Positions 7,551-45,408 of a stretch of 64,000 nucleotides of DNA are shown here, piece after piece (within the stretch, counting starts at the first letter, position 1; every line of letters begins with the position of its first letter). The stretch spans positions 186,001-250,000 of the forward strand of contig NZ_AP018712.1 in NCBI RefSeq assembly GCF_014701195.1, given 5' to 3'. The translations under genes were made by a program, and so were the position numbers. A model generated the notes under the pieces. It did not search any database, was not told the origin of the DNA, and saw nothing but the letters and a program-made list of their open reading frames with translations. The stretch comes from Tepiditoga spiralis. GTDB taxonomy: Bacteria; Thermotogota; Thermotogae; Petrotogales; Petrotogaceae.

Positions 7551-9524
7551 TTATAATTTAAAAAACTTTATTTGAGAAATAAGAAGCTTTGACATTTCAA
7601 GCAGTTCTCCTGCATTTGCCGTTATGTTTTGTGTTCCTTCTGATACATTGTTTATTGCTTCGCTTGCATCTGATACTTGATCACTTATCTCTGATACTAT
7701 TCTTGCCACATTGTCCATTGCTGAACTCATCTCTTCAGCTGATGCACTTTGCTGTTCTGAACTTGCTGTTAGATTTTGTATTCCACTGTTCATTCCATCT
7801 ACTCTTTCTTTTATTACTTCGAACTTTTCTGTTAGTTCTTTCATTGATCCATTTATTTTTTTAGTTATATTTACTATCTTTTCTGTTGCTCCTGCTGTTG
7901 TTTCTGTTCCTGTTTTTATTTCTCCTAAAATTACTGCTATCTTTTCTGTTGCATTCTTTGATTCTTCGGCTAACTTTCTTATTTCTTCGGCTACTACTGC
8001 AAACCCTTTGCCTGCTTCTCCTGCTCTTGCTGCTTCTATTGCTGCATTTAATGCCAATAAGTTTGTTTGTTCTGTTATACTGTTTATTGTATCTACTATG
8101 TTCTCTACGTTTGCTGCATTTTCCGAGAGCTTATTTACTTCTTTGTTCGTTTGATCTGATTGCGTTAATGCTTCATTTATTATCCTTTGTACATCACTTA
8201 TTAATCCAGATCCTTCATTTGCTGCTATTGATGATTCTTCCGCTGCTTCACTCAACTCTTGTGCTGAACGCGATATTGCTTGTGCACTTGCTGCTACTTC
8301 TTGTACTCCTGAACTTACCTCTTCTACATTTGCTGCTACATTTTCTGCATTGTCTTTTACTGAACTCATTTGTGCTGTTAATTCTTCGGCTGTTGCACTC
8401 AATTCTTCTGATACACTTGATAATTCTGATGATGCCCTTTCTGTATTACTTCCTGATTTATCTATACTCATTATTATTTCTCTTAATTTTTCTGTCATCC
8501 TTTTTAGCGCTTTTGACATCTGTCCTATTTCATCTTTTGATTCATATTCAAACTTTTCATTTATTTCTCCATTTCCAAACTTTTCTATCTTTTCACTCAT
8601 TTCTTTTAGTGGTTTTGTTATCATCTTTGATAAGAAGTATAATACCATTACTAATACTATTATTGATAATGTTACTGCTATTGTAAAGTTTATTATTAAT
8701 CTTCTTACTGGAGTTGTCGCTACATCCTTATCATCTACTACTGTATAAAATATCCAATTTGTTCCATTCATCTTTTGATAATATGCTGTCTTTTTTACTT
8801 TATTGTATACATAACTTATAACCCCACTATTTGATGTTGCTTTTTTATATAGTTCATTCGAGGATATATCAACACCTATTTTTGTTGCATCTTTGTGTAA
8901 AAGCGTTATTCCTTTTTCATTTAAAACATATGAATATTGACTTTTATACATATGTGATTCATTTAATTTTGTTACAAGTTCATTCATAGTTAAATCAAGA
9001 CCAACTACTCCAACTACTTCTCCATTTTTTATTATTGCCTTTGCTACTGTTATTAACATTTCTCCAGAACTAGCATCTGCATATGGATCTGTTATTACTA
9101 TTTCTCCGTTCTTTTCTAATGCTGCTTTATACCATGGTCTCACTCTTGGATCATATGTTGCTGGTAATTCTTGATCTGGTTTAATCAACATTGTTCCATC
9201 TGGTAATCCCATATATACACTTTGTATTTCACTGTAATTATCTACAACATTTTGAAAGGTTTTTAACATCCATTTTCTTTCTCCATATTTATTTTCATAT
9301 GCTCCTAATACATTTGTATCTCCATTTAAAAAATTTGCTATATTCCCTACATTATTAAAAAATGCTTCAAAACTATTAACTATATTTGTATTTGATAACA
9401 TAATGTCATGTTTTGCTTTTTTAAAAGCAGTTTGATATGATGCCACATTATTGTACATTATTAATATAAAAAATACAGTTATAGTACCAACTATAAAACT
9501 TATCAACTTTCCTTTTAACTTCAT
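7551..9524 (-). CDS. Methyl-accepting chemotaxis protein (dCache sensor), copy A
   Basis: A 657-residue chemoreceptor. TM1 is at about 9-27; the extracytoplasmic dCache-type domain (about 30-275) contains [13 protein letters not shown] and [13 protein letters not shown], the pattern seen in amino-acid-binding dCache_1 sensors (an inference about ligand). TM2 (about 278-298) is followed by HAMP and a long coiled-coil signalling domain with the conserved tip [20 protein letters not shown]. It should signal through CheW/CheA, which are not in this window. It lies 12 bases after the STAS gene and is probably co-transcribed with it. It is an almost exact copy of the receptor at 10039-12009 except in the ligand-binding part. 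Confidence 0.96.
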
Positions 9525-10038: not shown

Positions 10039-12009
10039 TTATAATTTAAAAAACTTTATTTGAGAAATAAGAAGCTTTGACATTTCAAGCAGTTCTCCTG
10101 CATTTGCCGTTATGTTTTGTGTTCCTTCTGATACATTGTTTATTGCTTCGCTTGCATCTGATACTTGATCACTTATCTCTGATACTATTCTTGCCACATT
10201 GTCCATTGCTGAACTCATCTCTTCAGCTGATGCACTTTGCTGTTCTGAGCTTGCTGTTAAGTTTTGTATTCCACTGTTCATTCCATCTACTCTTTCTTTT
10301 ATTACTTCGAACTTTTCTGTTAGTTCTTTCATTGATCCATTTATTTTTTTAGTTATATTTACTATCTTTTCTGTTGCTCCTGCTGTTGTTTCTGTTCCTG
10401 TTTTTATTTCTCCTAAAATTACTGCTATCTTTTCTGTTGCATTCTTTGATTCTTCGGCTAACTTTCTTATTTCTTCGGCTACTACTGCAAACCCTTTGCC
10501 TGCTTCTCCTGCTCTTGCTGCTTCTATTGCTGCATTTAATGCCAATAAGTTTGTTTGTTCTGTTATACTGTTTATTGTATCTACTATGTTCTCTACATTT
10601 GCTGCATTTTCCGAGAGCTTATTTACTTCTTTGTTCGTTTGATCTGATTGCGTTAATGCTTCATTTATTATCCTTTGTACATCACTTATTAATCCTGATC
10701 CTTCATTTGCTGCTATTGATGATTCTTCCGCTGCTTCACTCAACTCTTGTGCTGAACGCGATATTGCTTGTGCACTTGCTGCTACTTCTTGTACTCCTGA
10801 ACTTACCTCTTCTACATTTGCTGCTACATTTTCTGCATTGTCTTTTACTGAACTCATTTGTGCTGTTAATTCTTCGGCTGTTGCACTCAATTCTTCTGAT
10901 ACACTTGATAATTCTGATGATGCCCTTTCTGTATTACTTCCTGATTTATCTATACTCATTATTATTTCTCTTAATTTTTCTGTCATCCTTTTTAGCGCTT
11001 TTGACATCTGTCCTATTTCATCTTTTGATTCATATTCAAACTTTTCATTTATTTCTCCATTTCCAAACCTTTCTATCTTCTCACTCATTTCTTTTAATGG
11101 TTTTGTTATCATCTTTGATAAAAAGTATAATACCATTACTAATACTATTATTGATAATGTTACTGCTATTGTAAAGTTTATTATTAATCTTCTTACTGGA
11201 GTTGCCGCTACATCCTTATCATCTACTACTGTATAAAATATCCAATTTGTTCCATTCATCTTTTGATAATATGCTGTCTTTTTTACTTTATTGTATACAT
11301 AACTTATAACCCCACTATTTGATGTTGCTTTTTTATATAATTCAGTCGTAGACATGTCTTTACCTATCTTTGTTGCATCTTTGTGTAAAAGCGTTATTCC
11401 TTTTTCATTTAAAACATATGAATATTGGCTTTTATATATACGTGATTCATTTAATTTTGTTACAAGTTCATTCATATTCAAATCAAGTCCAATTACTCCA
11501 ACTACTTCTCCATTTTTTATTATTGCTTTTGTTACTGTTATTAACATTTCTCCAGAACTTGAATCTGCATATGGATCTGTTATTACTATTTCTCCGTTCT
11601 TTTCTAATGCATCTTTATACCATGGTCTCACTCTTGGATCATAATCACTACTTACTGGTGGTGGAGTTGTTATCATTGTTCCATCTGGTAATCCCATATA
11701 TACAAATTCTATTTCAGCATAATTATCTACAATATTTTGAAAGGTTTTTAACATCCATTTTCTTTCTTCATACTTATTTTCATATGCCCCTAGTACATTT
11801 GCATCTCCATTTAAAAAATTTGCTATATTTCCTACATTATTAAAAAATGCTTCAAAACTATTAACTATATTTGTATTTGATAACATAATGTCATGTTTTG
11901 CTTTTTTAAAAGCAGTTTGATATGATGCCACATTATTGTACATTATTAATATAAAAAATACAGTTATAGTACCAACTATAAAACTTATCAACTTTCCTTT
12001 TAACTTCAT
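10039..12009 (-). CDS. Methyl-accepting chemotaxis protein (dCache sensor), copy B
   Basis: A 656-residue chemoreceptor with the same architecture as the copy at 7551-9524: TM1, dCache-like sensor, TM2, HAMP, methyl-accepting coiled coil. From about residue 215 to the end the two proteins differ at only about two positions (T/A near 274 and K/R near 316). Differences concentrate in the sensor, for example the strand after PDGTM, which reads [14 protein letters not shown] here and carries a one-residue deletion relative to copy A. The RPWY and [13 protein letters not shown] ligand-pocket motifs remain. This pattern points to a tandem duplication with gene conversion or recent origin and change of ligand specificity. 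An AGGAGG site precedes the ATG, as in copy A. Confidence 0.96.
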
Positions 12010-28622: not shown

Positions 28623-30089
28623 CTAATAGTCAAATATTGTCTTTTTATCTTTATAATGTTCCTCTAAATCAAATATTGTTTTTTTATCTTTGTAATGATC
28701 TTCTAAATCAAATATCGTCTTTTTATCTTTGTAATGATCTTCTAAATCAAATATCGTCTTTTTATTTTTATAATGATCTTCTAAATCAAATATTGTTCGT
28801 CTTCTTTGAACACTCAAAGGTAAATTCCCAATTATATCTTCCATAAAAAAATAATTTTTTTTATCCAATCTTTTATAAGTTTCTATTGCTTTATTAATAA
28901 TTAAGTCACCTGCAATTGCAACAGCAATAACTGTAAATCCTGTTGGAGTAGCCCCCAATATTACTGCACAATACGAAAATAATCCTGAAAAAGATGATTT
29001 TAATATATTTTCACCATTTTCTTTTAGAAATTCTTCTGAATTTATGCTCTTATCTATAAAAAAATCATAAACTGTATTAACTTCATTGAAAACAAATGTA
29101 GCAATACCATAATTCAAAGCTGCTCCAGTTGCTGCTGTTAATGCATATTTTTTACCAATTTTTTGCATTATGGCCTCAGAAGTATATAGAGAAATTCCTG
29201 TTTTTGAACTATCTTTAATTACATTTTTTAAAGCCTCATCAATTTCTTCTTCATTCTTATAAACTTTATAAGAATGAAATAATCCCGAAATTATTCCAGA
29301 AAGCAAAGCTCCCTTAGCTGCAGTTTTTATATTAAGATACTTATTAATTTTATTTGAACTATTCATCATTTTTTTTAAATTAGTATAAACTTTTATATTT
29401 TTTTCTTGAAATTCCTTAGAAAAAATATCTTCTAAAGAACTTCCTAAGTTTACTTTTTTTATAAATTTAGTTATTAAAATACTCTGTTCTTTTTCTGATA
29501 AATTTTTTGGTATATCCTTTAAATACTTTCTAAAATCTGTAGTAAGATTTGAATTTTTACCAAATAAAGTTTCAAAATTTTTTAAAATATCCTTCTTTAA
29601 ATTATTTATATCAGATAATGGTTCTATTATCTTATCTTCATAATCTTTTAAAATGTGATGATCATATATTAATCCAGCTAAAGATTTTGCAAGTTTTTTA
29701 TCTGTAACTCCTGTTTTTTCCATAACTATATTTGTCATTTTATCTGTTATTTTTTTCCATTCTAATACGATTTTCTCTTTAGAAACTCCATTTTTAATTA
29801 ATTCTTTTAAATATTCATTTTTATTAAAGGGTATGCTTCCAGAAAAACCCCAATGTCCAAAGTTTCTATGCCCAAATTTTCCAAATTTTGTACTTATATC
29901 TTTAAACGGATTACTATTTATATTATCTATTAAATTACTTATTTCTGTAAATGTTAATCTAATATTTTTATTTTTTCCAGTATAAAAGCCAAAATCTTCT
30001 AATCCTGCTTTAGCATGTTCTGAAGCACTTGGTAATGAAAAAAAAGAAAGACTTAATATAAGAAATATCATTACAAATATTTTTTTCAT
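28623..30089 (-). CDS. Secreted protein with C-terminal 13-residue tandem repeats
   Basis: A 488-residue protein with a signal peptide ending near FFSLPSASE. The N-terminal third has a histidine/glycine-rich segment (FGHRNFGHWGFSGSIPF) and a LIYDHHILKDYED segment that could bind metal. The middle contains Gly/Ala-rich hydrophobic stretches (about residues 250-275, 310-335 and 365-400). The C-terminus is four copies plus a partial copy of the 13-residue unit KTIFDLEDHYKDK, ending in KTIFDY. The frame is open from a GTG at 30095, but the ATG at 30089 has proper spacing from GGAAG. Function unknown; Gly/Ala-rich membrane segments plus a repeat tail recall surface or toxin-like effectors, which is speculation. 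Confidence 0.7.
   Translation of the reverse strand: MKKIFVMIFLILSLSFFSLPSASEHAKAGLEDFGFYTGKNKNIRLTFTEISNLIDNINSNPFKDISTKFGKFGHRNFGHWGFSGSIPFNKNEYLKELIKNGVSKEKIVLEWKKITDKMTNIVMEKTGVTDKKLAKSLAGLIYDHHILKDYEDKIIEPLSDINNLKKDILKNFETLFGKNSNLTTDFRKYLKDIPKNLSEKEQSILITKFIKKVNLGSSLEDIFSKEFQEKNIKVYTNLKKMMNSSNKINKYLNIKTAAKGALLSGIISGLFHSYKVYKNEEEIDEALKNVIKDSSKTGISLYTSEAIMQKIGKKYALTAATGAALNYGIATFVFNEVNTVYDFFIDKSINSEEFLKENGENILKSSFSGLFSYCAVILGATPTGFTVIAVAIAGDLIINKAIETYKRLDKKNYFFMEDIIGNLPLSVQRRRTIFDLEDHYKNKKTIFDLEDHYKDKKTIFDLEDHYKDKKTIFDLEEHYKDKKTIFDY
28630..28800 (-). repeat. 39-base tandem repeats encoding the C-terminal repeat tail
   Basis: Four tandem 39-base units begin at 28630, 28669, 28708 and 28747, with a partial fifth at 28786. 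Units differ at only a few bases, some of them silent. Each encodes one 13-residue repeat in the same frame. Confidence 0.9.
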
Positions 30090-30338
30090 ACCCACACTTC
30101 CTTTTTATATACTATTTATTAATTAAAAAATTTGAATTTACAATATAATAATACCATATTTTTAATAAAAATAAAATACTTTTTTAAGTTATTTTAATAT
30201 TTTCGTAAATATTTTTTTTTTATAAAAACAAAACAATAAATTTGATTAACTAATTTTATTACTTTATGAAATAATAATTTGTCATGGTAAAAAGGCATTA
30301 AAAAAATGTTGATACCTTAAATTACCTATTCAGTATGA

Positions 30339-35469: not shown

Positions 35470-37173
35470 TTAATGCAGTAATTGACTTTCTATGTTTCTA
35501 CTGTACTCCTTACAATTTTCTAATAAATCTTTATGACTTCCTTTAGAAAGCACTTTCCCATCATTAATTATTATTATATTTTCTGCTTTTTTAATTGTTG
35601 AAAGTCTATGTGAAATAATAATAATTGTAGGAATTATTTTTGAAATAGAATCAAAGATTTTTTCCTCTGTTTTTGAATCAATAGCATTGGTTGATTCATC
35701 TAAAATGAGTAAATCGGGTTTTCTTATTATAGCTCTTGCTATTGTTATTCTTTGTTTTTGACCATCAGATAAATTTGATCCATTTTCACCAAGAACTGTT
35801 TTCATTCCATCTTCAAGCTCTGGTAAAAAATCATTTATACACGAATATTCAATAGCTTTTTTTATATCTTTTTCACTAAAAGTATCTCCAAAAAAAATAT
35901 TTTCTTTTAATGTATCATTTAAAATGAATTCATTTTGAGAAACGTATAATATTTTCTTATGCAAAGAATTAATATCATATTCTTTTATATTTTTATTATT
36001 TATGAAGATGTTTCCAGAAAAATCTTTATAGAACAATGGCAGAAGATTCAGCAAGGTACTCTTACCACTTCCACTTTCACCAACAATACTGTATTTGTTA
36101 TTAGAAACAATATTTAAATTAATATTTTTTATTATTTCTTTATCTTCATAAGAAAAGGATATATTTTTTAATTCAATATTTTTTATTGATTCCAATAAGT
36201 CATTTCCATTATGTTCATCTTCTGGTAAGTTGTATATTTCTTCAATTCTTTTTAAAGTTTCTTTGCTTTTCTTTACTGAAATAACTATATTGCTTAACAT
36301 TTGTATTGGATGGTTAAGCCATCCAATATACGAATAAAAAGCTATTAGAGTACCTAATGAAATTTCTTTTCTTTGAACTAAAAGTCCACCAATACCTAAT
36401 ATTAAAATTGGTATTAAATTATATATAAAACTAATAAATTCATCTTGAGCTCTTGTATAAAAAATTAATTTATTTTTTGCATTTTTATCTTTAATACTAT
36501 CATCTTCAAATTGATTCAAAAAATGATCTTTTTTAGAAAAACCTATTATAGTTTTAAAACCACTAAGTTTTTCTCTAAAACTTTCTATCAAAACAGAATT
36601 TGTCTTTCTTTCGTTTATTGAAGAATTTTTTATCTTTTTATCAAAAAGTTTCGATGTAATATAAAAAAGAGGTAATGTTGAATAAGCAATAATTGCAAGT
36701 TTGTAACTAAAACTAAATAACAAAAATGCTGCTGATATAAGTTGTAAAATATTTGCAAATATTACTAAGTAAACAATAGATATTGTCTGAGATAACTCAT
36801 CAGTATCTTGCAAAACTCGAGATAAAATATCTCCACTAGTATATTTTTTTAAATCTTTTAGAGATAATTTAAATATTTTTTTAAATAATGAAACCTTTTC
36901 TTTTGATGAAATATTATTAATTGTTTTGTATAAAAGATTATTTGAGAAAAAATTTATTAATCTTTCTACAACAACTATACCCAACAATAAAAATACATAT
37001 GATAATATTATTTTAATATCTTTATTAAGTATATTATCAATAAATTGTTTTATTACAATGGGTCTTATTAATGGAAATAACACAGCTATTACAGTAGGTA
37101 TAAGTAAAAAAAATTGTATTTTTATATATTTTTTTGAATATTTAAAAATATTTGCAAATGATTTATTTTTCAA
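35470..37173 (-). CDS. ABC exporter, fused permease and ATPase
   Basis: A 567-residue half-transporter with six predicted membrane helices (about residues 15-300) and a C-terminal nucleotide-binding domain: Walker A GESGSGKST near residue 365, signature LSDGQKQRI, Walker B LLILDESTNAID and H-loop IIISHRLST. It lacks an N-terminal C39 peptidase domain, so it does not belong to the leader-cleaving bacteriocin exporters. It starts with TTG behind GGGGGA. Its promoter region is shared with, and divergent from, the decayed regulator copy at 37365, mirroring the arrangement at the other end of the RiPP operon, which suggests peptide or drug export. Confidence 0.9.
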   Translation of the reverse strand: MKNKSFANIFKYSKKYIKIQFFLLIPTVIAVLFPLIRPIVIKQFIDNILNKDIKIILSYVFLLLGIVVVERLINFFSNNLLYKTINNISSKEKVSLFKKIFKLSLKDLKKYTSGDILSRVLQDTDELSQTISIVYLVIFANILQLISAAFLLFSFSYKLAIIAYSTLPLFYITSKLFDKKIKNSSINERKTNSVLIESFREKLSGFKTIIGFSKKDHFLNQFEDDSIKDKNAKNKLIFYTRAQDEFISFIYNLIPILILGIGGLLVQRKEISLGTLIAFYSYIGWLNHPIQMLSNIVISVKKSKETLKRIEEIYNLPEDEHNGNDLLESIKNIELKNISFSYEDKEIIKNINLNIVSNNKYSIVGESGSGKSTLLNLLPLFYKDFSGNIFINNKNIKEYDINSLHKKILYVSQNEFILNDTLKENIFFGDTFSEKDIKKAIEYSCINDFLPELEDGMKTVLGENGSNLSDGQKQRITIARAIIRKPDLLILDESTNAIDSKTEEKIFDSISKIIPTIIIISHRLSTIKKAENIIIINDGKVLSKGSHKDLLENCKEYSRNIESQLLH

Positions 37174-37234
37174 AATTAATCCCCCTATAACTTTAATATA
37201 TTTTTTAGCACAATTATATTATAACTCATTCCAT

Positions 37235-37264
37235 TTGACTTTACTTTTTTATGCATGCTATAAT
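37235..37264 (+). promoter_or_regulatory. Promoter of the decayed regulator copy
   Basis: TTGACT (37235-37240), an 18-base spacer, and TATAAT (37259-37264) with an extended TGC just before it. The same promoter arrangement occurs at 43701-43730 before the intact gene. Confidence 0.7.
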
Positions 37265-37538
37265 AGCTTATATAAGATGGTTTCAAACGACAATTTTTCT
37301 TAAAAATTGTAACATTGCATTTTTTTGTTTATAACGTCCCATTTGAAGTAGGAGGAAACAACTTATGAATGAATTTTGTCTCAAGATTTTTAATATAGCT
37401 TCTCAATATGGTTCCTATAGAAAACCTTTTTTAAATAGGGTTATTTTTTATAATAAAATAAACAATGGTTGGAATAGTTTATTTAAATCTTTTTTATTTA
37501 GTTAAAATAATAATTTTGAAAGTTTACTTTTAGAAAGA
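37259..37538 (+). repeat. Direct repeat of promoter, leader and gene start (left copy)
   Basis: This block matches 43725-44004 with few differences and a constant offset of 6466 bases. It covers the -10 box, a 5' leader with an ACAATTTTT/AAAAATTGT hairpin (37290-37310), the identical AGTAGGAGG ribosome binding region and the first codons of the regulator gene. The leader is as conserved as the coding part. Confidence 0.85.
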
Positions 37539-37778
37539 AATATATTTTTTGAAAATTATTTAAATTTAGAAAGTAAAGAAAGATACGTAATAGACACTTT
37601 TATAAGAAATTATTCAAGATATGATTTTGATTTTTCTATTTAATTAAAAATTTTTGATAAATTAAAAGATTTTACAAATAAGTATAAATTAAAAAAAACA
37701 CCAACGATATTATCTTTTTGGTGTTTTTCAAAATCTTCTGAAAGGGTTATTTTATTAAATATTTTAAAAAAATTATAA
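37365..37778 (+). pseudogene. Decayed, internally deleted copy of the 525-residue putative regulator
   Basis: The 414-base frame begins MNEFCLKIFNIASQYGSY and ends SSERVILLNILKKL, matching the start and end of the gene at 43831-45408. About 390 internal codons are missing; the junction near 37530-37538 falls at an AGAAA microhomology found on both sides in the intact gene. Two in-frame stops interrupt it: TAA at 37503-37505 (where the intact gene has TGG) and TAA at 37641-37643. The rest of the frame is preserved and similarity is high, so the decay is recent. Promoter and ribosome binding site are intact, so it may still be transcribed. Confidence 0.85.
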
Positions 37779-37804
37779 ACACTTTGACTTGCATTATAAG
37801 TTTT

Positions 37805-38827
37805 TTATATCATACTAAAATCTCTTCTCATTATTTTTTTAAAATAAACGTATCCCAAACCTATTGCAGGCGTATACTTTTTTACATTTAAGAGATTTTC
37901 AAGTGTAATATATTCTGAAAAATTCATTTCTTTATATATTTCTTTTAATATATTATTTATACCATACCCTGTAGCAAATAAAGTTATATTATTATCCAGA
38001 TTATTTTTTTTCATAATTTTATTTATTTTAAATTTTATTGTATTTTTTATTTCTTCGTATATATATTTAATTATTATATTTATTTCTTCTTTGCTTAAAA
38101 AATTTTTATCTGAAGCAATCAATTGACATATTTTATTTTCAATCTCTAATTTATTAATAAATTTAATATTAGAAGAATAATTTAAATGTTTATTGTATGG
38201 TATCATATCAAGATAATAAAAAATATCTCCAGTTTTTAGAATAGGTTCAGCTATTATTGGAACATCAAAATTTTTGTATGGAACAGTTTTTATTACACTT
38301 TGTAATATCGTTCTTACCATACCTAAATAATTAACTTCACCATCTATTAATCTCATTATATTATTCTTATTATTTTCTTTTTCTAAAATAGGAATTATAT
38401 CTGTGGAAGTAGATCCCATATCAATTATTATACCTTTTCTATCTTTACATAATTCTCTTGTTATAGCCCAATTATAACATTCAGTATATCGTTCAAAATC
38501 TAAAATTTCTATATTAATTAATCTATCTGGAGTAAACATAAAAATTTCTCCTTTAAATACTTCTTTTAAAATTGAAGCTATTTTTTTCACACCTTCTTTA
38601 TTATTTTCATAAATTAAAGAAGCTGTTTGTGTAAATAGTATTTTATCAATTGAATTTTTTGAAGTTATTTTAAATATCTCTTTTTTCAAAAACAACTCAA
38701 ATACATTTAAATTATTGTTTAAAATATTTAATTCGTCATATTCTTTAATTTCTATTTTGTTAGATTGAAAACTAAATATACAATATTTCAAATTTGCTCC
38801 ACCAATATCTAAAGTTAATATTTCCAT
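37805..38827 (-). CDS. COG1548 family protein (MfnF / hydantoinase-like)
   Basis: A 340-residue ASKHA-fold protein. The N-terminal LDIGGANLKY (residues 6-15), the DMGSTSTDIIPI motif (136-147) and the EVNYLGMVRTILQSVIKTVPY segment are characteristic of COG1548, which includes the archaeal methanofuran enzyme MfnF and proteins annotated as H4MPT-linked C1 transfer or hydantoinase-like. That pathway is not expected in this organism. Here the gene is the last of the radical-SAM peptide operon, 20 bases after the ABC permease gene. I infer that it may help modify the peptide or a related small molecule. AAGGAGA site upstream. Confidence 0.75.
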   Translation of the reverse strand: MEILTLDIGGANLKYCIFSFQSNKIEIKEYDELNILNNNLNVFELFLKKEIFKITSKNSIDKILFTQTASLIYENNKEGVKKIASILKEVFKGEIFMFTPDRLINIEILDFERYTECYNWAITRELCKDRKGIIIDMGSTSTDIIPILEKENNKNNIMRLIDGEVNYLGMVRTILQSVIKTVPYKNFDVPIIAEPILKTGDIFYYLDMIPYNKHLNYSSNIKFINKLEIENKICQLIASDKNFLSKEEINIIIKYIYEEIKNTIKFKINKIMKKNNLDNNITLFATGYGINNILKEIYKEMNFSEYITLENLLNVKKYTPAIGLGYVYFKKIMRRDFSMI

Positions 38828-38847
38828 TTTAATTTTCTCCTTTTTTA

Positions 38848-39612
38848 TTATTCAATATACCAGTTTATAAATTTATATAAATAAACAAAAGATATTAAAA
38901 CAAATAAACTTAAAACAAATAAATTAATGAAAAATGCTCCATTAAAAATGTTATTAAAAATACTTTCAAATAAATTAACTGCATATGTTGTTGGAAATAA
39001 ATAACTTATCCATAAAAAAATTTTTGGAAATTTTTCTGTTGGAATTATTGTTGGCGTAAAAAATACCATAAAAAATACTACTGCATTTCCAATTATATTT
39101 GAATGTATTGGAGTTTTACTTTTCAATCCTATAAACACACCCAAACCAACAAAAGACAACGAAGAGATTATAAAGGCTATTATAACTGTAAATAATACTT
39201 TTTGAATTTCTATATTTATTCCAAGTATTAATTTAGTAAAAATTAAAGTTGCTATTGATGCTGGCAAATAACTTATTGCTGATGAAAAAATCAAAGCTAA
39301 AATAAAATTTATTTTTTTTATTGGTAATCCTATAAAATAATTTATACTTTCGTCATATTTCATTTGAGCAAGTCTTGAACACAACATGAGCATCAATGGC
39401 ATTACCATACTTATTACAACATTTCCAGATATCAAATGTATTGCTTGAATTTTATTATAATTATTCCAAAATACTTTTATAAAAAGAATTAAACCAATAG
39501 GAGCTACCATTCCAAATATCATTTGAAAAATCCATATTACTCTAACTTCTGAAAAAATAATAATAAATAAATAATAAAACTCTTTTAAATTTTCAAATAT
39601 CTTTTTTATCAT
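38848..39612 (-). CDS. ABC-2 type permease of the RiPP cluster
   Basis: A 254-residue membrane protein with six predicted helices (for example VIWIFQMIFGMVAPIGLILF and LFVLSLFVLISFVYLYKF), fitting an ABC-2 permease. Its ATG overlaps the stop of the ATPase gene upstream (ATGA), indicating one transporter. It probably exports the modified peptide or confers self-protection. No similarity to the other two permeases at 45639 and 46349 beyond fold is obvious by eye. Confidence 0.85.
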   Translation of the reverse strand: MIKKIFENLKEFYYLFIIIFSEVRVIWIFQMIFGMVAPIGLILFIKVFWNNYNKIQAIHLISGNVVISMVMPLMLMLCSRLAQMKYDESINYFIGLPIKKINFILALIFSSAISYLPASIATLIFTKLILGINIEIQKVLFTVIIAFIISSLSFVGLGVFIGLKSKTPIHSNIIGNAVVFFMVFFTPTIIPTEKFPKIFLWISYLFPTTYAVNLFESIFNNIFNGAFFINLFVLSLFVLISFVYLYKFINWYIE

Positions 39613-40565
39613 TTTTTTAAATCCTCTTTTATAAAGTTTTTCCTATAATTTTTTAAAAAAAATAAATATGAATCTTCTAAATTTGTATTCAATACTTTTA
39701 TATCTTTTAATTTTTCTTTTCCTATTTCTTTGTTCAAATAATCCATTGACTCAAATATTTTTTTCTCTTCAATATAAATACTTGTGTAGCCAAATTCATT
39801 TATAGAAAAATTTTTAAAATAATTTTCTATTTTCGGAATTTTATCTTTGTGTATAAAAAATTTTATTTTATAATCTCCTCCCATAAGTGCTATATAATTT
39901 TTTGGAGTATCTAATTTTAATAAACTACCATCATATATTATGGCAACTCTATCTGCTATTTTTTCTATTTCAAATATATTATGTGAAACAAGTATTATGG
40001 TATATCCATATTTCAACTTTAATCTATGAACAAAATCAATTAATAAAGCCTTTTTTTCTGGATCTAAATTATTTGTTGGTTCATCTAAAACTAATATTTT
40101 AGAATCAGAAACAAGTGAAACAGCTAAATTTACTATTTGTTTTTGTCCACCAGACATATTTTCTATTTCTTTGTTAAAAACTGTATTCAAATCTAATTCT
40201 TTTTTCAATAATTCAATTTTTTCTTTTATTCTATTTTTAGTCATTTTATTCAATTTTCCAGTATAGTATAATGCTTCTCTTGTTTTTAAACCTCTCAACA
40301 CAAAATTTGATTGAGATTGATAACATAGATTTTTTCTTATTAAGTTAGGATTTAAAGAAATATCTTCTTTATTAAAATATATTTTCCCAGAAGTTGGTTT
40401 TAAAAAACCAACTATTTGTTTAATCAAAGTAGTTTTTCCAGCTCCATTTGGTCCTAAAATACCTAAAATTTCCCCTTTTTTTATATCTAAAGAAATATTT
40501 TTATTTGCTGCTATTCCATTTTTATAAATTTTTGTTATGTTTTTCGCTTCTATAATTTTATCCAT
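39609..40565 (-). CDS. ABC transporter ATP-binding protein of the RiPP cluster
   Basis: A 318-residue ATPase with Walker A GPNGAGKTTLIKQ, Q-loop, signature MSGGQKQIVNLA, Walker B ILVLDEPTNNLD and the H-loop histidine in LVSHNIFEIEKIADR. About 100 extra C-terminal residues follow the ATPase core, as in many drug and bacteriocin exporters of the CcmA type. The start overlaps the CPBP protease gene by eight bases, and the stop overlaps its permease partner. Confidence 0.93.
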   Translation of the reverse strand: MDKIIEAKNITKIYKNGIAANKNISLDIKKGEILGILGPNGAGKTTLIKQIVGFLKPTSGKIYFNKEDISLNPNLIRKNLCYQSQSNFVLRGLKTREALYYTGKLNKMTKNRIKEKIELLKKELDLNTVFNKEIENMSGGQKQIVNLAVSLVSDSKILVLDEPTNNLDPEKKALLIDFVHRLKLKYGYTIILVSHNIFEIEKIADRVAIIYDGSLLKLDTPKNYIALMGGDYKIKFFIHKDKIPKIENYFKNFSINEFGYTSIYIEEKKIFESMDYLNKEIGKEKLKDIKVLNTNLEDSYLFFLKNYRKNFIKEDLKK

Positions 40566-41097
40566 TTTCCCACTCTTTTTTCTTATTATTCTTATAATTT
40601 TTTATAAAATAAATATAATTTGCCATATTTATAACTGAATGTATCAATATAGTAGGAATAATACTATTAAAAATTAAAAAATATATTCCCAAAATCATTG
40701 CTATCAAAAATAAAAAAATATATTGATAAAAGTTATAAAATTTATGTTGAAACATAAATATTATAGAAGAAATAATTACAGCTATGTATGAATTAAATAT
40801 TTTTATTAAAATTGATATTAAAATTCCACGATATAATATTTCTTCTAATATTGGAATAAAAATAATTCCTTTAAATAAATAAAGATAAATAGATTTTTTT
40901 GATATATTTTTAAATAAATATTTATAATTATTATTTTTCAATTCAAGTAAATAATTAATTATAAAAAAAATCAATGAATTTATAAAAAATAAAAAAAAAT
41001 CTTTTTTTGAATAATTAAAATTATTTATATTTAATAAATCTACTCTTGTTACCATAAGATAAATAAAAATAAAAATAACACTAATTTCTTGTTTCAC
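40558..41097 (-). CDS. CPBP family intramembrane glutamic protease
   Basis: A 179-residue membrane protein with several hydrophobic helices and the CPBP (Abi/CAAX) motifs: EEILYRGILISIL (catalytic Glu-Glu and Arg), FMFQHKFYNF (conserved His) and HSVINMANY (second His). Such proteases occur in bacteriocin clusters, where they serve in immunity or in cutting the leader. Either fits here; no peptidase domain is fused to the exporters. The frame opens at a GTG within the GTAAGGTGAT region; the GTG at 41097, six bases after AAGGTG, is preferred. It lies downstream of the precursor gene and its hairpin. Confidence 0.85.
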   Translation of the reverse strand: MKQEISVIFIFIYLMVTRVDLLNINNFNYSKKDFFLFFINSLIFFIINYLLELKNNNYKYLFKNISKKSIYLYLFKGIIFIPILEEILYRGILISILIKIFNSYIAVIISSIIFMFQHKFYNFYQYIFLFLIAMILGIYFLIFNSIIPTILIHSVINMANYIYFIKNYKNNKKKEWENG

Positions 41098-41118
41098 TAA
41101 AATCACCTTACCTATAAA

Positions 41119-41144
41119 ATGTTCCTCATTAAAATGAGGAACAT
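41119..41144 (-). terminator. Probable leaky terminator after the precursor peptide gene
   Basis: Arms ATGTTCCTCATT (41119-41130) and AATGAGGAACAT (41133-41144) pair perfectly around two bases. On the minus strand the stem is followed by a short TTTTA tract. It sits eight bases after the precursor stop and inside the operon, where partial termination would give more precursor mRNA than downstream transporter mRNA. Confidence 0.7.
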
Positions 41145-41151
41145 GAAAAAA

Positions 41152-41253
41152 TTAATATCCTTGACCACATCCACATTCAGAAGATGCTTTAGCTAAAAAT
41201 ACAGGTTTTTCATAAACTTTTTCTACTTTTTTTACTTCTGGTTTTTCGTACAT
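41152..41253 (-). CDS. Candidate RiPP precursor peptide, 33 residues
   Basis: This short gene was found by translating the gap between the protease and the first radical SAM gene. It encodes 33 residues: a charged leader starting MYEKPEVKKVEKVYEKP and a C-terminal core AKASSECGCGQGY with two cysteines spaced Cys-Gly-Cys. It has a strong GGAGGTGAG ribosome binding site and lies 16 bases after the radical SAM gene that precedes it. The hairpin downstream is typical of highly expressed precursor genes. The absence of a signal peptide fits ABC export. The leader repeats the YEKP element twice, which may be the recognition part. Assignment as substrate is inferred from context. Confidence 0.8.
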   Translation of the reverse strand: MYEKPEVKKVEKVYEKPVFLAKASSECGCGQGY

Positions 41254-41269
41254 TTTCTCACCTCCTTTT

Positions 41270-42289
41270 TTATAAATTCCAGCAATATGGGTCAGGATAA
41301 TCATATGAATTATAATAACCATAGGTCATTCCTTTACATCCCCCCATACAAATATTAAGATGTTCACAATTATTACATTTTTTATTCAAATTTTGAATAC
41401 TTCTAAATTCTCTAAGATTTTTAGAGTATAACCAAATATCTATAAAATTTTTTTCTCTAATATTTCCTGAAACTAAGCTTCTATCTCCTATAAATTGGCA
41501 TGGATGTACATTCCCATCAGCTTCAATTACACACGAACTAATTCCAGCGGGGCAAAAAAGATCTTTTCTTTCTTTTTTTAATAAAAAACAAAATCCATCA
41601 TCTTCAGAAATATATATTTTCTTTTCATATTTTTTAGACAAATTTAAAATTTTATAAGAAAATTCTTTTGATTTTTTTAAATCAAGCATATTTAACTTAC
41701 TTTCTAAGCCACGACCAGTTGGGATATATTTTACAGCTAAAAAAGATTTAGCCCCATTTTTTATAGATAAGTTAATAACATCTTCAATTTCATTATAATT
41801 ATTATTCGTAACTGTCATACCTGTAGTAACTTTAATTCCATTATTTGAAAGAAATTTTATAGCATTTAATGCTTTATTAAAACTACCATTTACTCGTCTA
41901 AAGCTATCATGTTTTTCTTTATTTGAAGAATCCAAACTAATTTGTACTCCAGATATTTTATACTCTGATAATTTTTTTGCAATTTTTTCATTTATTAATA
42001 ATCCATTGGTTGCAATTTTTACCAATATTTTTTTTTGATTTAAATAATCTATTAATTCAAAAATAGATTTCCTTAAAAATGGTTCACCGCCTGTCAAAAC
42101 TACACTAAATACATTTATTTCGCTAAGATGATCTATTAATCTAAAAATTTCATCATCAGTTAATTCATTTTTTAAAGATTTATTTGATGAATTAGCACAA
42201 TGTAAACAATTTAAATTGCAATTTCTTGTTAATTCTATAAAAACATTATCTGGTACATTTTTAAAATTAGGTAATCTTAAATAATTCAA
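41270..42289 (-). CDS. Radical SAM/SPASM peptide-modifying enzyme
   Basis: A 339-residue radical SAM protein. The CNLNCLHC motif (C24, C28, C31) binds the SAM cluster, and GGEPFLRKS follows. The C-terminal SPASM part is complete in cysteines: CPAGISSCVIEADGNVHPC, then KKCNNCEHLNICMGGCKG and PYCWN, enough for two auxiliary clusters. SPASM enzymes install thioether or carbon-carbon links in peptides. It lies directly upstream of the precursor gene, and its ATG overlaps the end of the second radical SAM gene by four bases. The reaction type (sactipeptide or ranthipeptide-like thioether, or other) cannot be predicted from this alone. Confidence 0.9.
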   Translation of the reverse strand: MNYLRLPNFKNVPDNVFIELTRNCNLNCLHCANSSNKSLKNELTDDEIFRLIDHLSEINVFSVVLTGGEPFLRKSIFELIDYLNQKKILVKIATNGLLINEKIAKKLSEYKISGVQISLDSSNKEKHDSFRRVNGSFNKALNAIKFLSNNGIKVTTGMTVTNNNYNEIEDVINLSIKNGAKSFLAVKYIPTGRGLESKLNMLDLKKSKEFSYKILNLSKKYEKKIYISEDDGFCFLLKKERKDLFCPAGISSCVIEADGNVHPCQFIGDRSLVSGNIREKNFIDIWLYSKNLREFRSIQNLNKKCNNCEHLNICMGGCKGMTYGYYNSYDYPDPYCWNL

Positions 42290-43233
42290 AATTTTTTCAC
42301 CTCAAAGTTTTTTAAAAAAGGATCTTTTTTCAATACATTATATTTTTCAAATGCTGCGCTTAAACATCCCATTCTTTTACCTCTTAAATTCAAAAAAACT
42401 TTACTATTCCAAATATCAAATACATTGTTTTCTATTAAAGAACCCACTTTTAAAGGTATTGAAGGACAAAGTAATACATCTCCTTTTGGATTTATTGCAA
42501 AAAAAGAGTTAGATGCTGGACAAGGTCTATTTTTTCCTTCATTAATAAATAAAAATAATGGATCTTCTATATAGAGTTCAATACTTTTTTCATATTTTAT
42601 TTTATATTCATAAAGTTTTTTTAAAATTTCATAATATTCATATTTATCAAGAGCATACTTATAACTATTTTTGTTATACTTTACATATCTAAAAGTTGTC
42701 CAGTTTTTCGCACCCAAATTAATTGATAATTTTATAATTTCTTCTAAGCTCATATAATTATTTTTATTAATTGTAGTAGCAATAGAAGTTGTAATATTAG
42801 TTTTAGAAATTTTTTCTATTACAGAGCAAACTTTCTCAAAATTAGAATTTTTTCCTCTAAGACTTTCATGTTCAAATTTATTCTTTCCATCAAGACTAAT
42901 CCTTATAGAATCAACTTTGTATTCTTGTAATTTTTCTATGATCTTATCATCTAATAAAAGTCCATTTGTATTTATGTGGACAAAAATATTATTTTTTTTT
43001 GCAATTTCTATTAATGAAAATAAATTTGTATTTAAAAAAGGCTCGCCACCAGTAAAGATTATTTTAAAAATCCCTGCATCAATTATTTTATTCATTATTA
43101 ATTTTAATTTATCAAAAGATAATGGATTTTTTAAATTTTGACTTGAACTATTAGAATAACAATGATTACATTTTAAATTACAACTATAAGTTAATCCCCA
43201 ATTAATTTCTGTAGGAGCAAAATTATTAATCAT
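42286..43233 (-). CDS. Second radical SAM enzyme with reduced SPASM/Twitch region
   Basis: A 315-residue radical SAM protein with C18-x3-C22-x2-C25 (SCNLKCNHCYS) and GGEPFLNTN. Unlike its neighbour, its C-terminal extension keeps only a few cysteines (RPCPASNSFF, VLLCPSIPL and GCLSA), so it can bind at most one auxiliary cluster. The two enzymes are similar across the SAM barrel and may have arisen by duplication, then taken different roles such as successive modifications. It abuts the PqqD-like gene with no gap. Confidence 0.88.
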   Translation of the reverse strand: MINNFAPTEINWGLTYSCNLKCNHCYSNSSSQNLKNPLSFDKLKLIMNKIIDAGIFKIIFTGGEPFLNTNLFSLIEIAKKNNIFVHINTNGLLLDDKIIEKLQEYKVDSIRISLDGKNKFEHESLRGKNSNFEKVCSVIEKISKTNITTSIATTINKNNYMSLEEIIKLSINLGAKNWTTFRYVKYNKNSYKYALDKYEYYEILKKLYEYKIKYEKSIELYIEDPLFLFINEGKNRPCPASNSFFAINPKGDVLLCPSIPLKVGSLIENNVFDIWNSKVFLNLRGKRMGCLSAAFEKYNVLKKDPFLKNFEVKKF

Positions 43234-43500
43234 TTAAATTTTTTCCTCAATAATTTTTTCATTTAATAAATTCATTAAAAATTCTATTACATCAGATTTA
43301 ATAATATTTTTATCAATTTTATATTCTTGATTTATTATATTAATAATTTCGTTAACTGTATAATCACCATTACAAAGTTCCCAGATAAAAGCGCCAACAT
43401 TATTAAGAGTATATAATTCATTTTCTTTCATAAATAAAATACTATCAACTTCTTTTCTCCATTTTATGTCTTTATTTCTAACAAATTTTTGATTTAACAT
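43234..43500 (-). CDS. PqqD-like RiPP recognition element
   Basis: An 88-residue protein of the PqqD fold. Diagnostic segments are KWRKEVDSILFMKENELYTLNNVGAF, the IWELCNGDYTVNEII helix pair and a final helix rich in leucine. PqqD-type domains bind the leader of a precursor peptide and present it to radical SAM enzymes. It precedes the two enzymes in the same operon, which agrees with that job. GGGGG ribosome binding site; ATG at 43500. Confidence 0.85.
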   Translation of the reverse strand: MLNQKFVRNKDIKWRKEVDSILFMKENELYTLNNVGAFIWELCNGDYTVNEIINIINQEYKIDKNIIKSDVIEFLMNLLNEKIIEEKI

Positions 43501-43531
43501 AAAATTCCCCCTTTCTTCATGACCAAATACT

Positions 43532-43654
43532 TTATTTTCCTAAATCAACAATTTTATTAATACTATCTGTTTGATTAGTTGATGGTAAAGGATCTGAAAA
43601 TGCCATTCCTCCAAATGCAATAATTGCTATAACTATGAATATAATCTTTTTCAT
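43532..43654 (-). CDS. Secreted 40-residue peptide, candidate pheromone or second precursor
   Basis: This small gene was found by translating upstream of the PqqD-like gene. It encodes 40 residues: a Sec-type signal MKKIIFIVIAIIAFGGMAFS followed by a mature part beginning DPLPSTNQTD and ending in VDLGK. It has no cysteine. The ribosome binding site GGAGGTG lies eight bases upstream of the ATG. It is the first gene of the RiPP operon and divergent from a large helical-repeat protein, the layout of peptide pheromone/receptor pairs (RRNPP systems). That role is inferred; it could instead be a small secreted helper. Confidence 0.65.
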   Translation of the reverse strand: MKKIIFIVIAIIAFGGMAFSDPLPSTNQTDSINKIVDLGK

Positions 43655-43730: not shown

Positions 43731-44004
43731 GGTTTATATAAGATGATTTTAGACGACAATTTTTCTTAAAAATTGTAACATTGCATTTTTTTGTTTATAA
43801 CGTCCCATTTGAAGTAGGAGGAAACAACTTATGAATGAATTTTGTCTCAAGATTTTTAATATAGCTTCTCAATATGGTTCTTATGGAAGACCTTTTTTAA
43901 ATAGGTTTATTTTTTATAATAAAATAAATAACGGTTGGGATAGTTTATTTAAATCTTTTTTATTTAGTTGGGATAATAATTTTGAAAGTTCCCTTTTAGA
44001 AATT
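43725..44004 (+). repeat. Direct repeat of promoter, leader and gene start (right copy)
   Basis: Right-hand match of the block at 37259-37538. The leader hairpin ACAATTTTT/AAAAATTGT is at 43756-43776. Downstream, 45166-45406 also matches the end of the decayed copy at 37536-37776. The two copies face the same way and bracket the RiPP operon. Confidence 0.85.
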
Positions 44005-45408
44005 AATAATGGTATTAAAAATTGCAAATCTAACACTCTTTATTATTTATTGCTGTCTAAAAAAATATCCTGTTTAATTCGTTTAAATAAATTTAATGAA
44101 TCTAAAAAATTGTATATGATTTTAAAAAAGAACTTAAGAAATATTCCTGAATTTTCTAGGAATATTGTTTTTTCTACATTATTAAACTGTGAATCTATTT
44201 TAAATATAAATAAAAACACAAGACTTTGGTCCAAAAAATATGAAGAAGATTTTTCTACAAAATTATTTGTAACTATTGGTAATGCTAGAAAAAATATTAT
44301 AAATAATAATTTTAATGAAGGATGGAAAAATTTTCAAACTGCTTATGAGTTGGCAAAAAAAATACGACATCCTGTTGGTTTAATAACTGTTTTAAATGAT
44401 TATAGTTGGTTTTTAAAAGATTTTGATGAAAGAAAAGCAAAAGAACTTTCAATTGAATTGATGTATTACTATTCATATTTTTTTGAAGATTTAACTACAT
44501 GGTTTGGAGTTTACGACACTTTTTTTGAAGTTCATAAAAATGATTTTTATTTTTTATTTTGGAATTTTAATGAATTAAGCTTTATATTCAATTTATTATC
44601 TAAAGAAGATAAAGAAAAATATAAATACTTTAAACTGTATGAAGGCAAATTTAAAATAAAATTATCTAAATATAATAATACAAAATTTTTAAAAGATTAT
44701 TTAAGTCAATATTTTTCTAATTTTTTTAAAGCATCAAAATTAACAAATATTTCTTATAAAAGATTAAAAGATTTGTTTAATAATAAAACAAAAAAAATTA
44801 AAGGCAATACTATTCAAAAATTTATATTAGGATTTAAAATAACTCCAAATACAAATGCACCTTTTCCAATTTTAAATGAATACTTGAAACTATTAATAGA
44901 TAAAAAATTTATTGAATCTTTAAATACTTTTTCTAAGTTAAACCATACTAATAAAAAAATGGTGTTTATTACAACTTATGTATCTATTTTAGATAAAAAG
45001 AATTCTAATTTAAAAAAGTTATACAATAATTTGAATACTATAAATACATTAAATCTTGATTATGATTTAAAACTATTTGTTATTAACATGATTAATCCAA
45101 ACAATATTTTAAAAGGAAGAATAGACTTAGTCTATCATTTTTTTAAAAAATTCACTATAAAAAAAAGAAAGTTATTTTTTGAAAATTATTTAAATTTAGA
45201 AAGTAAAGAAAAATACGTAATAGACACTTTTATAAGAAATTATTCAAGATATGATTTTAATTTTTCTATTAAGTTAAAAATTTTTGATGAATTAAAAGAA
45301 TTTACAAATAAGTATAAATTAAAAAAAACACCAACGATATTATCTTTTTGGTGTTTTTCAAAATCTTCTGAAAGGAGAGTTTTATTAAACATTTTAAAAA
45401 AATTATAA
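43831..45408 (+). CDS. Large helical-repeat protein with internal HTH-like segment, putative peptide-responsive regulator
   Basis: A 525-residue, lysine- and asparagine-rich, all-helical protein with no signal peptide. Residues 145-195 (IGNARKNIINNNFNEGWKNF and on) look like tetratricopeptide helices. Residues 298-336 (FFKASKLTNISYKRLKDLF, then KIKGNTIQKFILGF) resemble a Cro/C1-type helix-turn-helix placed in the middle of the protein rather than at its start. Combined TPR and HTH parts are the hallmark of peptide receptors such as Rgg or PlcR, though the order is different. It is divergent from the 40-residue secreted peptide gene. A truncated copy lies at 37365. I do not recognise a named family; regulator role is inference. 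Confidence 0.65.
   Translation: MNEFCLKIFNIASQYGSYGRPFLNRFIFYNKINNGWDSLFKSFLFSWDNNFESSLLEINNGIKNCKSNTLYYLLLSKKISCLIRLNKFNESKKLYMILKKNLRNIPEFSRNIVFSTLLNCESILNINKNTRLWSKKYEEDFSTKLFVTIGNARKNIINNNFNEGWKNFQTAYELAKKIRHPVGLITVLNDYSWFLKDFDERKAKELSIELMYYYSYFFEDLTTWFGVYDTFFEVHKNDFYFLFWNFNELSFIFNLLSKEDKEKYKYFKLYEGKFKIKLSKYNNTKFLKDYLSQYFSNFFKASKLTNISYKRLKDLFNNKTKKIKGNTIQKFILGFKITPNTNAPFPILNEYLKLLIDKKFIESLNTFSKLNHTNKKMVFITTYVSILDKKNSNLKKLYNNLNTINTLNLDYDLKLFVINMINPNNILKGRIDLVYHFFKKFTIKKRKLFFENYLNLESKEKYVIDTFIRNYSRYDFNFSIKLKIFDELKEFTNKYKLKKTPTILSFWCFSKSSERRVLLNILKKL
45324..45358 (+). other. Terminator-like palindrome inside the 3' end of the regulator gene
   Basis: AAAAACACCAA (45324-45334) pairs with TTGGTGTTTTT (45348-45358) about 50 bases before the stop codon. 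The same hairpin is kept in the decayed copy at about 37694-37728. Confidence 0.5.

Follow-up and report, generated by a model that had tools for sequence, protein, structure and literature searches.

A probable radical-SAM RiPP operon in Tepiditoga spiralis with a divergent TPR regulator and a candidate peptide pheromone

The operon and its genes

This report concerns a gene cluster of the bacterium Tepiditoga spiralis that is centred on two radical S-adenosylmethionine (SAM) enzymes and appears to produce a ribosomally synthesized and post-translationally modified peptide (RiPP), together with the regulator transcribed divergently from it. Both lie in the window, by which we mean the whole stretch of 64,000 nucleotides (nt) analysed here (contig NZ_AP018712.1, positions 186,001 to 250,000). 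On balance, we favour a radical-SAM RiPP (RaS-RiPP) operon controlled by a peptide pheromone as the explanation of this locus.

The open reading frame (ORF) list and searches with Pfam and NCBIfam models reveal nine co-directional genes on the minus strand, running from 43654 to 37805. The first encodes a 40-amino-acid (aa) secreted peptide (MKKIIFIVIAIIAFGGMAFS/DPLPSTNQTDSINKIVDLGK; 43532..43654) with a signal peptide, the Shine-Dalgarno (SD) sequence AGAGGAGGTG and a bias in G+C at third codon positions (GC3; P=0.009). It is followed by a separate gene for a PqqD-like protein of 88 aa, the RiPP recognition element (43234..43500; Pfam PqqD, 2e-16), by radical SAM enzyme 1 (315 aa; 42286..43233; Radical_SAM, 4.6e-27), which has a CxxxCxxC motif and seven cysteines in total, and by radical SAM/SPASM enzyme 2 (339 aa, 12 cysteines; 41270..42289; Radical_SAM, 6.8e-31; SPASM, 7.4e-12). 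Next come a putative RiPP precursor of 33 aa (MYEKPEVKKVEKVYEKPVFLAKASSECGCGQGY; 41152..41253) and an 11-bp hairpin on the same strand (41119..41144; -14.4 kcal/mol, z=-2.7) that lacks a strong T run and is a possible attenuation or transcript-end element. Beyond the hairpin lies the gene for a CPBP (Rce1-like) intramembrane protease (40558..41106; Pfam Rce1-like, 9.3e-16), whose EExxxR and HxxxN motifs, read from the sequence, are EEILYR and HSVIN. An ATP-binding cassette (ABC) ATPase of the ABC-2 type (39609..40565; Pfam ABC_tran, 1.1e-32), an ABC-2 permease (38848..39612; Pfam ABC2_membrane, 3.4e-13) and a COG1548/MfnF-like protein of the hydantoinase/oxoprolinase kind (340 aa; 37805..38827; TIGR03123, 3.1e-39) complete the series.

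An earlier, sequence-only reading had proposed these ORFs as one minus-strand operon; all of them were found at the positions it gave, their families were confirmed, and the single operon is borne out, since neighbouring genes overlap or abut (43234/43233, 42286-42289, 40558-40565 and 39609-39612), which makes one transcription unit likely. To these genes the present analysis adds the divergent regulator, a decayed copy of it and an ABC exporter, all described below. No operon protein reaches an NCBIfam equivalog cut-off in the searches, so that none of the operon enzymes belongs to a named NCBIfam pathway. The GC content of the operon is 21%, compared with 28% in the first 35 kb of the window; together with the absence of the operon from relatives, this points to acquisition, for which no donor was found.

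A divergent regulator paired with a secreted peptide

On the plus strand, at 43831..45408, family searches, domain models and AlphaFold define a tetratricopeptide repeat (TPR) protein of 525 aa with an embedded Cro/C1 helix-turn-helix (HTH), a candidate pheromone receptor and regulator. Of 103 Thermotogota genomes, 58 carry its family, a single genome holding as many as 13 matches, and family members match the HTH_26, HTH_3 and TPR_12 models; no match was found on plasmids. The AlphaFold model (predicted local distance difference test, pLDDT, 90) is nearly all-helical and places the HTH mid-chain, at about residues 285-335, between the TPR and a C-terminal helical domain. In Foldseek comparisons, RapF and PlcR overlap with the model only in part of the TPR region and at E>0.001, and the search by fold among viral models gave no match at E<=0.001.

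The start of the 40-aa peptide lies 177 nt from the regulator, on the opposite strand, and this arrangement recurs throughout the family. Among the 51 distinct members with enough upstream DNA, 32 have a divergent small ORF with an SD sequence and a signal peptide, compared with 5 of 308 controls, namely the remaining ORFs of these loci with a length of 200 aa or more, judged by identical criteria (Fisher p about 3e-27, a value that overstates independence because the members are related). These divergent ORFs are nearly always 150-390 nt from the regulator, and the pairs extend over five Thermotogota families and about a dozen genera. In genome G043, three paralogous pairs share the identical C-terminal decapeptide NPQIQIEFSE, with divergence in the signal peptides and in the receptors (about 60-67% identity); the DNA encoding the decapeptide is nearly identical across the three pairs, which makes gene conversion possible.

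Radical SAM genes are found within 4 kb on the peptide side at 17 of 37 loci, all in the orientation of the peptide, and on the other side at 4 of 27; the first count includes the window and three loci fetched for a known radical SAM match, and becomes 13 of 33, counted by hand, when those four are left out. Locus L085 carries the regulator, a signal peptide, a precursor (MLKGYYFINSKIEPVVECSFCQSAIVVCGVIW), a radical SAM enzyme and an ABC exporter, and L088 holds the same kind of genes with a broken regulator. At L099:9946-14052, in G043, the pair precedes four or more paralogous precursors rich in Cys (MKWIERNDEYSEEFWCPCKGP and others, of the types MKWIERNDE... and MSWIEEPKK...), a radical SAM gene and an ABC-2 transporter, making it a rich candidate thioether RiPP locus. 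L086 and L087 each combine a regulator, a candidate precursor and a radical SAM gene, and have no signal peptide under the stricter SD rule; under a laxer one, L086 gains a signal-peptide ORF at 365 nt and L087 gains none. L076 and L078 contain the regulator, a signal peptide, a 31-aa peptide (MQKMPKPVVPNDYLNPGKGCGGAGLVCGWCG), a radical SAM gene and two ABC exporters. We take L076 (genome G090) to be from Thermotoga maritima MSB8, in which case the 31-mer would be TM1316, in the TM1315-TM1319 locus; transcription at the TM1316 locus is reportedly triggered by stationary phase, to go by the title of the 2013 work of Frock et al. Other pairs adjoin major facilitator superfamily (MFS) or ABC transporters or secreted proteins, and these varied neighbours mark the pair as a general regulatory module.

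Because the peptide accompanies the regulator whatever lies downstream, be it MFS, ABC, secreted-protein or RiPP genes, the 40-aa peptide, for which the sequence-only reading offered no explanation, probably belongs with the regulator as a candidate pheromone rather than with the RiPP part as a substrate. The same constancy, and the conservation of peptide C-termini within clades, argue against a different account, to which we give a modest share of belief, in which the RiPP operon is real, the TPR-HTH protein responds to some other cue, and the 40-aa peptide, instead of being a pheromone, is a second substrate for export, a periplasmic accessory, or a peptide with a lytic or immunity function. 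That account draws its strength from the wide differences between clades in the mature parts of the peptides, from the position of the 40-aa peptide as first gene of the RiPP operon, and from the 19 of 51 regulators for which a divergent secreted ORF was not detectable.

A promoter element, a decayed regulator copy and an exporter

A conserved element, TGTAACAT-N15-ATAACGTCCCAT, lies in the divergent promoter region (43774..43808, plus strand) and is shared with related genomes; in five of these it occurs once before the orthologous regulator, and the reversed control pattern occurs 0 times. A further copy (37308-37342) lies within a decayed duplicate of the promoter region and regulator (37204..37785, plus strand), which retains only aa 1-59 and 445-525 of the protein in blocks that are 91% and 94% identical; over about 80 nt leading up to the start codon, the two promoter regions do not differ. 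Divergent from this decayed copy is an ABC exporter with membrane and ATPase parts in one chain, an architecture read from the sequence (35470..37173, minus strand). Since it shares the promoter-region copy, the exporter is probably under the same control, and it may export the pheromone or the product. A third copy of the element, at G000:C1:2120294 near a second RiPP operon of the same genome, sits in a 127-column alignment with no regulator; it was rejected as proof of a regulon and looks like a relict of a regulator promoter region.

Elsewhere in the window, the minus strand encodes a 490-aa secreted protein (28623-30095) that has several almost perfect repeats of 13 aa (type KKTIFDLEDHYKD) at its end, and two tandem, nearly identical methyl-accepting chemotaxis genes (7551-9524 and 10039-12009) that differ mainly in the sensor part.

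The radical SAM enzymes, the candidate precursor and related operons

Enzyme 2 has both the CxxxCxxC motif and a full SPASM domain. Its best solved relative is SkfB (6efn, E=2.9e-26) and the next is 5v1q, listed merely as 'Radical SAM' and presumably SuiB, the streptide enzyme; on plasmids, its best matches are mostly mycofactocin MftC proteins, and it scores 189.5 bits with the MftC model, for which the cut-off is 265. Enzyme 1 has a truncated C-terminal auxiliary domain without the CxxC...CxGGC end of SPASM, and this loss of the last SPASM cysteines, combined with 37% identity to enzyme 2, suggests a tandem duplication followed by divergence. The Thermotogota matches to enzyme 2 are roughly 30-36% identical and are paralogues. 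A single-protein scan of GTDB contigs found no orthologue of the exact operon and returned one archaeal match of 26%, in L002 (Methanomicrobiales); a radical SAM gene on a Treponema plasmid was set aside as a relative, its context being unrelated. At L002:5477-11763, the archaeal contig combines a radical SAM/SPASM enzyme and an ABC exporter with several PqqD-like genes and with small ORFs that follow the pattern DVLPEYQPPQV.KI..LN.GSG (YQPPxV type), and is a candidate archaeal RiPP locus in its own right.

The 33-mer carries the motif YEKP twice in its leader and has the core SSECGCGQGY. The leaders recognized by lasso-type PqqD chaperones carry a YxxP motif, and the best NCBIfam match of the PqqD-like protein is lasso_PqqD_Bac (2.4e-12, below cut-off). 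The ORF is preceded by a perfect SD sequence of 10 nt (AAAGGAGGTGA), its third codon positions hold 2 of its 30 G/C (P = 6.5e-4), and when the gap was shuffled 20,000 times, only 4 shuffles yielded an ORF of 30 aa or more with an SD sequence of 8 nt or more; the 33-codon ORF at 41152-41253 is therefore more than chance. The 33-mer is likely to be the substrate of the radical SAM pair.

The genome of T. spiralis contains a second RiPP operon, apparently damaged (L030:4500-10920, that is, G000:C1 about 2,113,000-2,119,420; precursor MKKDKKMQQPEYTIVEITVCMSKTGCSSVVD), with an intact counterpart in genome G040 (L024:2739-8254; precursor MKRNKKMKKPKFTVVEITVCMSKTGCVVIPT). In both, genes for PqqD, two radical SAM enzymes and an ABC transporter follow the precursor, and the Cys-containing precursor is co-conserved in the two genomes (...EITVCMSKTGC...); the PqqD is 45 aa long and apparently frameshifted in the damaged operon and 81 aa in G040. 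The further genes of the second operon are an ABC ATPase, two permeases, and nitroreductase-like and signal-peptidase-like genes. A precursor with PqqD, two radical SAM enzymes and an ABC transporter is thus a recurring plan here, and the precursor is conserved in the sister family. Another operon with two radical SAM genes, a 30-aa peptide (MNKKIKIIFKKVDKKEYSS[NS]GAIVSKSHGH) and an MFS-like transporter is present in two related genomes (L025:651-4304 and L026:7147-10386).

Taken together, gene content, gene order, nearest relatives (SkfB, SuiB and MftC) and the sister operons lend good support to a radical-SAM RiPP operon; that part of the sequence-only reading stands, and its interpretation as a whole is supported in part. 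The operon is a fresh member of a broad and known kind of RiPP, with an unusual enzyme set.

The COG1548 protein and other possible chemistries

The COG1548 protein is the sole copy among the 103 Thermotogota genomes; it scores 135 of 244 bits with TIGR03123 and 100 of 520 bits with MfnF, and matches PDB entry 3c0b at E=1.6e-17. The plasmid homologue examined, from Azospirillum, lies inside a tetrahydromethanopterin (H4MPT) cluster. We know of no RiPP with an MfnF-like tailoring step, and tailoring of the C-terminal Tyr of the 33-mer is a tempting but unsupported guess. The presumed reaction of MfnF links a furan diphosphate with Glu-Tyr or Glu-tyramine (PMC8141765). No MfnB (PF04476) was found in the genome, which makes methanofuran synthesis very unlikely, and with the MfnF model also below cut-off, a role as methanofuran gene was rejected.

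These observations bear on a mycofactocin-like chemistry, in which enzyme 2 would oxidatively decarboxylate the C-terminal Tyr of ...GQGY and the MfnF-like protein would act on the resulting tyramine-like end, yielding a peptide-derived redox factor instead of an exported bacteriocin. The window shares with mycofactocin (MftA-F) a PqqD-like partner, a related radical SAM enzyme with MftC among its nearest families, and a precursor ending in Tyr (here Gly-Tyr), and both the presumed MfnF substrate and the missing MfnB would suit such a role. Nevertheless, we hold it to be improbable: enzyme 2 falls below the MftC cut-off, the operon is without MftD/E/F-like genes, the CPBP and ABC-2 genes fit an exported peptide, and the Cys-Gly-Cys-Gly core would be left unexplained. 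Least credible of all is that the 33-mer is a spurious or regulatory ORF and the two radical SAM enzymes take a protein or a small molecule as substrate, as happens in the pathways to heme or tungsten cofactor, a notion encouraged by the NCBIfam top matches of both enzymes (AhbD and NirJ2, though far below cut-off) and by the lack of conservation of the 33-mer, and countered by the PqqD-like partner, the SD sequence and codon bias of the ORF, the ABC-2 and CPBP neighbours and the sister operon with its conserved Cys precursor.

Comparison with known systems

The closest analogue of the RiPP operon is skf, the sporulation killing factor operon of Bacillus subtilis (SkfA-B-C-E-F), which likewise has a short Cys precursor and a radical SAM/SPASM maturase. 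The skf genes run from CPBP protease to ABC ATPase to permease, and the window keeps this order, with its CPBP gene in a SkfC-like position. Unlike skf, it has two radical SAM enzymes, a separate PqqD-like protein and a COG1548 gene, its precursor comes after the enzymes, there is no thioredoxin-like gene, and the core CGCGQGY is unlike SkfA. The presumed TM1316 locus of T. maritima, in the same phylum, is alike in its divergent TPR-HTH regulator, small secreted peptide, short Cys peptide, radical SAM enzyme and ABC transporters; it differs in having one 463-aa radical SAM enzyme of another subfamily, an unrelated precursor and ABC exporters, and no PqqD, CPBP or COG1548 gene was seen there.

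In streptococci, SHP/Rgg systems control the RaS-RiPPs streptide and tryglysin (PMC13361665). There, as in the window, a divergent short secreted peptide and a TPR-HTH regulator stand beside a radical-SAM RiPP operon, whereas the window receptor, from another phylum, has its HTH between the TPR and the C-terminal helical domain. With the RRNPP proteins (Rgg, PlcR, Rap), the family shares the adjacent small gene for a secreted pheromone precursor, yet it has no N-terminal output domain before a C-terminal TPR array. By analogy, the pairing would work like SHP/Rgg control while lying outside RRNPP by architecture and by detectable whole-chain similarity.

Proposed mechanism

In the pheromone-controlled RaS-RiPP operon that we favour, the 40-aa pre-peptide would be secreted through its signal peptide, and its C-terminal part would return to the cell and bind the TPR domain of the regulator, whose embedded HTH would then activate or derepress the divergent promoter; the outcome would be a cell-density switch like that of streptococcal SHP/Rgg. 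Within the operon, the PqqD-like protein would hold the YEKP-containing leader of the 33-mer while both radical SAM enzymes act on the core SSECGCGQGY; the simplest modification would be the formation of Cys thioethers, the alternative being chemistry at the C-terminal Tyr. The COG1548 protein would perform an ATP-dependent tailoring step, the CPBP protease would trim the leader and/or confer self-protection, and the ABC-2 pair would export the product or confer immunity, as in skf.

Several points count against this account. The regulator has no whole-chain match in the PDB at E<=0.001 (Foldseek) and no full-length fit to RRNPP proteins, and for more than a third of the family members compared a divergent secreted partner was not detectable, as given above. 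Its closest orthologues, which are Marinitoga-like and about 43% identical, have no RiPP genes next to them, and the regulator therefore does not serve a single kind of target. The 33-mer has no homologue in the 102 other Thermotogota genomes, and no relative keeping both radical SAM genes was found among the Thermotogota searched, so that conservation speaks neither for nor against its pairing with the enzymes; the account also leaves the role of the COG1548 protein unexplained. The genes, their domain content, the pairing and its statistics are what the analysis shows; secretion, re-import, binding and density dependence of the peptide, as well as all RiPP chemistry, are steps that we infer.

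Significance for the Thermotogota

More tentatively, and a little short of an even chance in our estimate, the locus may represent a phylum-wide and so far undescribed peptide quorum sensing of the intracellular type in Thermotogota, in which secreted pre-peptides of ~35-70 aa and divergent non-RRNPP TPR/embedded-HTH receptors repeatedly control radical-SAM RiPP operons, including TM1316, here with an MfnF-like enzyme recruited. In the literature searched, which excludes most subscription journals, no paper was found that describes such pairs of secreted peptide and TPR/embedded-HTH protein. Little is documented on quorum sensing by peptides in thermophiles: when 106 thermophilic bacteria were surveyed by homology, no peptide system proved complete, and T. 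maritima alone was named, on the strength of an earlier report (PMC6022435). If true, a family of receptors and pre-peptides that comes to light through gene pairing would account for the failure of homology searches to detect such systems, the induction of TM1316 in stationary phase would gain a specific hypothesis open to testing, and the logic of pheromone-controlled RaS-RiPPs in streptococci would extend to an unrelated phylum. The loci described here also indicate many unstudied RiPP operons in thermophiles, one of them with an MfnF-like enzyme.

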